Assembly: GCA_021818865.1 (NCBI GenBank)
Contig: JAKASX010000011.1
Location: forward strand, 1-57,673
DNA: 57,673 bases
Source of the DNA: Acidobacteriota bacterium
GTDB lineage: Bacteria; Acidobacteriota; Terriglobia; Acidiferrales; UBA7541
Reading direction: 5' to 3'
Of the stretch, positions 49,008 through 51,086 are shown one piece after another (position 1 is the first letter of the stretch; the number at the start of each line of letters is the position of its first letter). The notes under the pieces are model-generated. The model was given only the letters and a program-made list of their open reading frames with translations, had not been told where the DNA came from and ran no database searches. Position numbers and translations under genes: made by a program.

Positions 49008-49273
49008 GCGGGTATCTCTCCCCCTTTTGAATTCCTCACGGACGCCCACCCCTACAGCCGTTCCATGCAGCGCGCTTCCCCCACGCAACGAAGAGAAACC
49101 GGAGCGGCTGGGAAACTCCGCCGCGGTTTCATAAACGCCTCCCCGTTACTTGCCGGTAGATTAACACTTTCGCGCGCTTGGCGTACCCCTCTTCCTTTCT
49201 GGCCGGCCATCGGGCAGTAACATACAATGTCTGCCGGTCAGCCGGTTCTGTTTTGGGGGAGAGCGCAAACGAA

Positions 49274-49600
49274 ATGAGTTACGATCTGCAAATTGATCCG
49301 CAGGAAGTGAAGGAAAAACTCGATCGGGGCGAATCGCTCGTTCTGCTCGACGTGCGCGAGCCGTGGGAACACGAAATCTGCCGCATCGCGGGTTCGGTCC
49401 TCGTTCCGATGGCCGTTCTGCCTTCGCGCCTCGATTGGCTCGAGGAAAAGCAGAACGTGGTCGTCTATTGCCACATGGGCATGCGCAGCCTGAACGCCGC
49501 TGCGTGGCTGCGCGAACAGGGAGTCGCAGGCGCGCGTTCTCTTGCCGGCGGCATCGCGCGCTGGACGGACGAAATTGATTCGTCGCTCGCGCGTTACTAG
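49274..49600 (+). CDS. Rhodanese-like sulfurtransferase domain protein
   Basis: 108 residues from ATG 49274. Single rhodanese domain: SLVLLDVREPWEHEICRIAG with the substrate-like motif and the active-site loop VVVYCHMGMRSLNAAAWL, where Cys is the persulfide-carrying residue, then GARSLAGGIARWTDEID. It can carry sulfur or act as phosphatase-like redox sensor. It lies upstream of the ArsC-like selenoprotein, in the same direction; linkage is not proven. Confidence 0.93.
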   Translation: MSYDLQIDPQEVKEKLDRGESLVLLDVREPWEHEICRIAGSVLVPMAVLPSRLDWLEEKQNVVVYCHMGMRSLNAAAWLREQGVAGARSLAGGIARWTDEIDSSLARY

Positions 49601-49632
49601 CGTAATGAGTCGCAAATATGTTTACGCTGCCT

Positions 49633-49650
49633 GCCGGGCTGAAGCCCGGC
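49633..49650. repeat. GCCGGGCTGAAGCCCGGC palindrome
   Basis: Perfect 18-base palindrome 33 bases after the rhodanese stop. Same core (GGGCT-GAAG-CC) as the family A palindromes. May act as terminator stem or repeat unit. Confidence 0.8.
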
Positions 49651-49735
49651 GCTACATATGATTCGCTCCATCGGCAGCGTCAACATTTCCAAGACGCAGG
49701 AGACTAGCTCTGCGGGGCGGCGGCACGGAGTTGGC

Positions 49736-49842: not shown

Positions 49843-50193
49843 ATGCCGAAAATGAAATTGAAAATGTACCTGAAGCCCACTTGAACCTCCTGCCGCAAAG
49901 CAAGAGGTCTCTTGCAAAAAACGCATTCGGAACTGGACCTGCGCGATCTCGGCAAGCAGCCGCTCAGCGAAGCCGAACTCGACGCGCTCATCGGCGAGCG
50001 GGATTATCGCCTGTTTCTCAACGCGAAAAACGAACTCTATCGCGAGCGCAACATGAAGCAGAATCCGCCCTCGAGGTCAGAAGCCATTCGCCTGATAGCG
50101 AAGCATCCGAATCTGATTCGCCGGCCCATCGTCATTGCGGGGAAACGCATCGTTATCGGTTACGATGAGGAGGCGCTCGCTTCGCTCAAATAA
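49843..50193 (+). CDS. ArsC/Spx-family selenoprotein, TGA at 49882-49884 read as selenocysteine
   Basis: 116 residues if the in-frame TGA is translated. From ATG 49843 (behind GGGGGA) the frame reads MPKMKLKMYLKPT-[TGA]-TSCRKARGLLQ and on without a break to TAA at 50193. The family start is KPTCxxC; here the first Cys codon is TGA and the second (C17) remains, giving U-T-S-C. The rest is a good ArsC/YffB-type thioredoxin fold: LSEAELDALIGERDYRLFLN, SRSEAIRLIAKHPNLIRRPI, VIGYDEEALASL. Sec-containing ArsC-like proteins have been reported in bacteria. A caller that ignores Sec would start at TTG 49912 and lose the active site. Reduction of a thiol, arsenate or other oxyanion is possible; substrate unknown. 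Confidence 0.85.
49885..49920 (+). promoter_or_regulatory. Bacterial SECIS element
   Basis: Directly downstream of the TGA. The stem GCAAG (49900-49904) pairs with CTTGC (49911-49915) around the loop AGGTCT; the inner A-T closes it further. E. coli fdhF has a loop AGGUCU too, with its GG at +19/+20 from the UGA; here GG is at +22/+23. A lower alternative pairing ACCTC/GAGGT is present. The match of loop, distance and stem is strong for SelB recognition. Confidence 0.8.
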
Positions 50194-50237: not shown

Positions 50238-51086
50238 ATGCCGGTCATCGACATTCACGTTCACATTCAGCCGCTCGAAATGTTCAAGCCGCAGAATCTC
50301 GCGCTCATTCAGCGCGGCCGCAAGGATTACGCCCGCGTCGTCGAATTCTCGCAAAATCCCGTCGCGTTCCTGAAATTCATGGACGAAGTCGGCGTCGAAC
50401 GCGCCGGACTGATCAATTACGTCAGCCCGGACATCATCGGTTTCACCGCCGAAGTGAACGATTGGGTCGCGCGCTACGCTTCGGCCGATCCCAGGCGCCT
50501 GATCGCGTTCGGCTCGGTGCATCCACGCTTCATCGAAGACGCCGCTCGCGAAGTCGAGCGCCTCGCCAATCTCGGCATTCGCGGCCTGAAACTCCATCCC
50601 TCGCATCAGGTCGTCGCGCCCAACGCCTATCGCGAAGGAATGGCCAAGCTCGGCGCGATCTACGAACGCGCGCAATCGCTTGGTCTGCCCGTGATGATTC
50701 ACACCGGCACTTCCATTTTTCCCGGCGCGCGCAATCTCTACGCCCAGCCCATGCTCGTCGACGATGTCGCCATCGATTTTCCCGATCTCACGATCCTGCT
50801 CGCTCACGGCGGCCGCCCGCTGTGGATGAACGAAGCGTTTTTCCTCGTTCGCCGCCATCCCAACGTGTTTTTGGAGCTTTCCGGCATTCCGCCGCAGCGC
50901 CTGATGGAATATTTTCCGCGGCTCGAGGAAGTTGCCGACAAATCCATTTTCGGCACCGATTGGCCCGGTCCCGGCGTCCCGGAAATCGCCGGCAACATCC
51001 GTAAATTTCAAGCGCTGCCGATTTCGGCCGAGGCTCAGGGTAAGATTTTGTACGACAACGCCGCTCGCCTGTTCCCGTCGCGCTGA
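50238..51086 (+). CDS. Amidohydrolase family metal-dependent hydrolase (amidohydrolase-2 type)
   Basis: 282 residues. TIM barrel with the metal-binding HxH in VIDIHVHIQP, His in LKLHPSHQV, HTGTSIFPGA and LLAHGGRPLW, and the final Asp in IFGTDWPGPGV. These are the ligands of the amidohydrolase-2/ACMSD-like group, which decarboxylate or hydrolyse aromatic or dicarboxylic acids. Between the selenoprotein gene and the 3-hydroxyacyl-CoA dehydrogenase gene; a role in aromatic acid metabolism is possible. Confidence 0.9.
   Translation: MPVIDIHVHIQPLEMFKPQNLALIQRGRKDYARVVEFSQNPVAFLKFMDEVGVERAGLINYVSPDIIGFTAEVNDWVARYASADPRRLIAFGSVHPRFIEDAAREVERLANLGIRGLKLHPSHQVVAPNAYREGMAKLGAIYERAQSLGLPVMIHTGTSIFPGARNLYAQPMLVDDVAIDFPDLTILLAHGGRPLWMNEAFFLVRRHPNVFLELSGIPPQRLMEYFPRLEEVADKSIFGTDWPGPGVPEIAGNIRKFQALPISAEAQGKILYDNAARLFPSR

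Follow-up and report, generated by a model that had tools for sequence, protein, structure and literature searches.

Gene Content of the Locus

The window, i.e., the whole stretch of acidobacterial DNA that was analyzed (57,673 nt), carries a short gene for a candidate selenoprotein of the ArsC/Spx type, which lies between genes for a rhodanese-domain protein and an amidohydrolase (Table 1). Its frame (49843-50190, followed by the TAA at 50191-50193) is interrupted by a single internal stop, the TGA at 49882-49884, and the motif KPT-TGA-TSCRKA, pointed out in a preliminary description of this DNA, indeed lies within one open frame. The readthrough product begins MPKMKLKMYLKPT-U-TSCRKARGLLQKTHSELDLRDL, where U, followed by TSCRKARGLLQ, heads the active-site motif (KPT-U-TSC-RKA), and its N-terminus is kept in near relatives. 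Pfam ArsC (PF03960) matches the product across the TGA (residues 9-112, E 5.6e-19, 68.7 bits compared with a gathering threshold of 24), and the frame and the protein identity are conserved on either side, in line with the family pattern previously noted on both flanks.

Table 1. Features of the candidate selenoprotein locus (positions are those of the window).
Feature	Position	Strand	Remarks
Rhodanese-domain gene, upstream	49178..49600	+	Pfam Rhodanese, E 6.3e-17; catalytic loop CHMGMRS; possible functional partner
ArsC/Spx-like candidate selenoprotein gene	49843..50193	+	116 residues, ATG start, TAA stop; Pfam ArsC
In-frame TGA, predicted selenocysteine codon (residue 14)	49882..49884	+	TGA in 62/105 distinct homologues, TGC or TGT in 43
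TGC, presumed resolving Cys17 of U-x-x-C	49891..49893	+	C17 invariant in alignment A2
Predicted bacterial SECIS hairpin	49900..49915	+	Stem GCAAG/CTTGC, apical AGGTCT; conserved in TGA forms, covariation, compensated versions
Amidohydrolase (Amidohydro_2) gene, 44 nt downstream	50238..51086	+	Pfam; also downstream in several relatives

In the list of open reading frames the gene appears, as had been anticipated, only as a 93-aa fragment initiated at a TTG (49912-50193) that is devoid of the active site. Standard gene calling would produce the same truncation, with removal of the active site, throughout an acidobacterial lineage most members of which are uncultured. The fragment is the one observation that would fit a genuine stop at the TGA, whether by pseudogene formation, sequencing error or translation of a short ORF from the downstream TTG at 49912, and its lack of an active site already speaks against that explanation, as does the conservation of frame and protein identity on both sides of the codon.

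Exchange of TGA and Cysteine Codons among Homologues

The codon at the aligned column was read in all fetched loci that cover it. Among 105 distinct homologues there were 62 with TGA and 43 with TGC or TGT, and none with any other codon or another stop, so that the Cys of the Cys-containing forms aligns to the TGA, as proposed earlier. Numerous independent assemblies, from many families of the phylum, contain the TGA, and the nearest relatives, of the same genus and with 90% and 74% identity, keep it as well. As the column always holds TGA or Cys, and the nearest relatives also have TGA, both sequencing error and pseudogene formation are excluded. With the hairpin conservation described below, and with only Cys forms in those genomes that lack selA, a true stop is extremely improbable; it was rejected, along with its variants, on grounds of conservation.

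A homologue is present in 69 of 95 genomes of the order, and the family extends across the phylum. Within the order, selA was missing from none of the 42 genomes with a TGA form and from 7 of the 26 with a Cys form (Fisher p = 0.0007, uncorrected for relatedness, and with five of the seven belonging to one genus); all genomes of the order without selA have Cys forms only. Several Cys genomes retain selA, which indicates that Sec can be lost while the machinery stays. A tree was computed from which the columns of the motif and the hairpin had been removed. In it the Sec and Cys forms are interleaved and require at least eight changes, with many forks unresolved, and the strongly supported branches alone force only two. 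The family offers a clean set of natural Sec/Cys exchanges, linked in part to the loss of SelA and accompanied by an unusually clear SECIS, and lends itself well to studying when selenium is retained and when it is dropped.

Selenocysteine Decoding Genes

The preliminary description had made its interpretation dependent on selA, selB, selC and selD in the same genome, and all four were found in the host assembly (3.97 Mb, 95% complete). SelA, SelB and SelD scored 568.9, 377.7 and 140.5 bits, respectively, and a tRNA-Sec was detected at 67.4 bits, above the Rfam cut-off, for which ARAGORN gave the anticodon TCA. Given selA, selB, tRNA-Sec and selD, the host genome is a Sec-decoder. The selD gene (G000 contig C116:2-301, minus strand, locus L013) is truncated by the contig end. 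It has an in-frame TGA of its own (KAAG-U-AAKLSP), after which comes a strong hairpin whose apex has a G-U close by, and is itself an apparent selenoprotein gene.

The Predicted SECIS Hairpin

The hairpin GCAAG-AGGTCT-CTTGC begins 15 nt after the TGA. When the T of the TGA is counted as base 1, the GG of the loop occupies bases 25-26, i.e., +22/+23 after the codon, exactly as the preliminary description had placed it, and the G-U occupies bases 26-27. A published model of bacterial SECIS elements specifies a small apical loop with G in the first two positions, a distance of 16-37 nt from the UGA, a stem of 4-16 bp and a minimum free energy of <= -7.5 kcal/mol (PMC13188914). The geometry here agrees with it (6-bp stem, loop GGTC, distance 21); the local hairpin energy, -7.3 kcal/mol, falls just short of the published -7.5, and longer windows give a competing fold.

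Folding of the region had been suggested as a check; isolated segments of 63 or 39 nt prefer another structure. The competing minimum-energy fold pairs bases 2-12 with bases 19-30. It was rejected, and the local hairpin preferred, because its covariation is no better than that of shuffled letters and it uses bases that would be inside the ribosome at the UGA. The predicted SECIS is thus identified by conservation and covariation, not by minimum energy. Paired bases fill 92.9% of the stem cells of alignment A1, above all 500 shuffles, and the covariation score of the stem likewise exceeded every shuffle.

The first set of homologues included 47 TGA forms, of which 31 have the exact 16-mer, GCAAGAGGTCTCTTGC, and eight more differ from it by one base; it is in none of the 28 Cys forms. 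Most of the exceptions retain a hairpin, and several are compensated: the G23-C30 pair becomes A-U in four TGA forms, as in GCAAAAGGTCTTTTGC, and in versions such as CCAGGAGTTTCCTGG the A22-U31 pair is swapped for other pairs (C-G in three), so that the earlier reading of the AGGUCU loop and its stem as a SECIS is upheld by compensatory changes. In one genus the stem is longer and displaced by one base. Of the 62 TGA forms of the larger set, 56 have G-U at bases 26-27, as do 2 of 43 Cys forms, and the remaining six TGA forms have it displaced by one or four bases. Local folding energies average -8.2 kcal/mol in TGA forms and -1.5 kcal/mol in Cys forms. A scan with generic bacterial-SECIS rules was unspecific (26 of 43 Cys forms also passed) and was kept out of the evidence because it does not separate the two forms. 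The distant TGA forms L116 (G136) and L118 (G380), of family f29, have the same GGTC apical loop four bases nearer to the TGA, and SECIS spacing therefore varies within one protein family.

The codons of the hairpin are atypical, being rare in the host genome yet fixed here: AGA accounts for 1 of 139 Arg codons in six genes of the window, yet is used in 43 of the 62 TGA forms. With 62 homologues sharing the TGA column and such genome-rare codons fixed in the hairpin, the joint occurrence of TGA, motif and hairpin is far beyond what chance would give, in line with the original argument. The Sec machinery, the Cys/TGA column and the conserved hairpin all support the original reading of an ArsC/Spx-like selenoprotein, and the product is almost certainly a selenoprotein with a thioredoxin fold of the ArsC/Spx branch. 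We infer that selenocysteine is inserted at the TGA: at the UGA, SelB carrying Sec-tRNA-Sec would recognize the apical G-U of the hairpin, which starts 15 nt downstream, and by binding there would deliver selenocysteine in place of termination.

Protein Family and Predicted Function

The AlphaFold2 model of the product (mean pLDDT 91.4) aligns along its entire length with both ArsC and Spx entries, most of them giving Z 14-17, with the two groups tied. Alignment A2 shows no variation at C17, R94 and P95, nor, apart from the U/C exchange, at position 14. In the model, Sec14 sits just before the first helix and Cys17 one turn later. The product is probably a thiol/selenol oxidoreductase that uses this pair. 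Sec14 would most likely be the attacking selenol, acting on an oxidized or persulfidated substrate, and Cys17 would resolve the intermediate by forming a selenenylsulfide, to be reduced in turn by a thiol system of the cell.

Two more specific functions were considered. Spx and Spx/MgsR are the top-ranking NCBIfam models for the product, among proteins of solved structure Spx is nearest in sequence (E 6e-15), and the stretch TSCRKAR is held in common, all of which would suit a selenium-containing Spx-type regulator, with U-x-x-C as a redox switch for binding the C-terminal domain of the RNA polymerase alpha subunit. We regard such a regulator as unlikely, since the product falls below the cut-offs of all Spx models (Spx/MgsR TIGR01617, 65.1 vs 75.05; NF002459, 67.7 vs 123), although the broad TIGR01617 is passed by three of seven relatives (two of them distant TGA forms, the third a Cys form); moreover, ArsC and Spx entries tie by structure, the neighboring genes encode enzymes and a rhodanese, and it is in Firmicutes that Spx is established.

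A selenium-containing arsenate reductase is quite improbable. Membership of the Pfam ArsC family agrees with this function, as does the invariant pair R94-P95, the position of which we take to be that of the oxyanion-binding Arg of ArsC, but the score against the glutaredoxin-type arsenate reductase model TIGR00014 is 50.4 where the cut-off is 106.05, the motif is U-x-x-C rather than a single catalytic Cys, and no arsenic resistance genes were recognized in the gene neighborhood, which also counts against it. The product likewise misses the cut-off of NF041106 (ArsC_rel_Se_1; 34.6 vs 85), as do seven relatives at 28-44.2 bits. As the Spx, Spx/MgsR, arsenate reductase and NF041106 cut-offs are all missed, and given the scores of the relatives, the oxidoreductase proposed here is placed in a separate ArsC/Spx-like subfamily.

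Gene Neighborhood

Upstream of the TGA form, the neighbor seen most often is a rhodanese whose catalytic loop is intact (relatives L017-L052). Among loci with enough flanking sequence, a single-domain rhodanese with an intact CHxGxRS loop lies just upstream in 21 of 44 TGA loci versus 1 of 21 Cys loci, a contrast that partly reflects lineage because many of the Cys loci are distant; it is absent from about half of the TGA loci. In the window, the listed TTG start of the rhodanese gene is probably too far upstream. The association might point, at rather low probability, to sulfane sulfur or a persulfide as substrate, or to a redox pathway that both proteins share. Between the rhodanese and selenoprotein genes is a palindrome-bearing sequence, GCCGGGCTGAAGCCCGGCGCTAC (49630-49665), which resembles a dispersed intergenic repeat.

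The amidohydrolase gene is probably co-transcribed with the selenoprotein gene. Downstream genes are variable among the loci and include the amidohydrolase (by Pfam) and, by eye, a 3-hydroxyacyl-CoA dehydrogenase, a macrodomain protein and a 2Fe-2S molybdenum-hydroxylase subunit. A setting resembling acyl-CoA or aromatic degradation is frequent (L126-L130; 50238-52680 in the window), with members, named mostly by eye, that are CoA-transferase-like, enoyl-CoA-hydratase-like and 3-hydroxyacyl-CoA-dehydrogenase-like, together with the amidohydrolase and macrodomain proteins. These surroundings favor a redox enzyme over a regulator.

Comparison with Known Systems

Arsenate reductase selenoproteins were reported in a 2005 survey of the Sargasso Sea (PMC1088965), and a 2008 marine survey by Zhang and Gladyshev described ArsC selenoproteins of type 1 (UxxS) and type 2 (cd03032, UxxC), the latter, 'Arsenate reductase 2', comprising 42 marine GOS sequences (PMC2398784). 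Compared by description, the GOS Arsenate reductase 2 proteins share with the present family the ArsC/Spx-type domain, the UxxC motif and the existence of Cys homologues; they come from marine metagenomes, whereas the family described here belongs to a widespread acidobacterial lineage, with a SECIS that hardly varies and, in many loci, a neighboring rhodanese gene. The ArsC family (seleno)protein model NF041106, given as UxxC in a 2026 review (PMC13188914), has in common the ArsC domain and U/C at the active site, and the acidobacterial proteins differ in scoring below its cut-off, hence their separate subfamily. A literature search of partial coverage found no description of the acidobacterial ArsC lineage or of Spx selenoproteins. 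ArsC-family UxxC selenoproteins are thus a kind already known, and knowledge of selenocysteine decoding is unchanged, while there appears to be no earlier account of this subfamily, of how widely it is spread or of its very regular SECIS. A broader proposal, which we consider doubtful as a whole, is that of a distinct, phylum-wide acidobacterial subfamily that would form a persulfide-handling redox pair with the rhodanese, would have exchanged Sec and Cys many times (at least eight), and in which the SECIS would fix the residues KARGLL.

Spx and MgsR (PDB 1z3e and 7f75) share the fold (Z about 15), a redox motif and 30-32% identity with the acidobacterial protein, in which Sec would replace the first Cys and the cut-offs of the corresponding models are missed. 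The SECIS of E. coli fdhF has an apical AGGUCU loop, in which G-U is recognized by SelB, and a bulged U. The same loop with its G-U is found at the present locus, but three bases farther from the UGA, and on a short, perfect stem that lacks the bulged U of fdhF.
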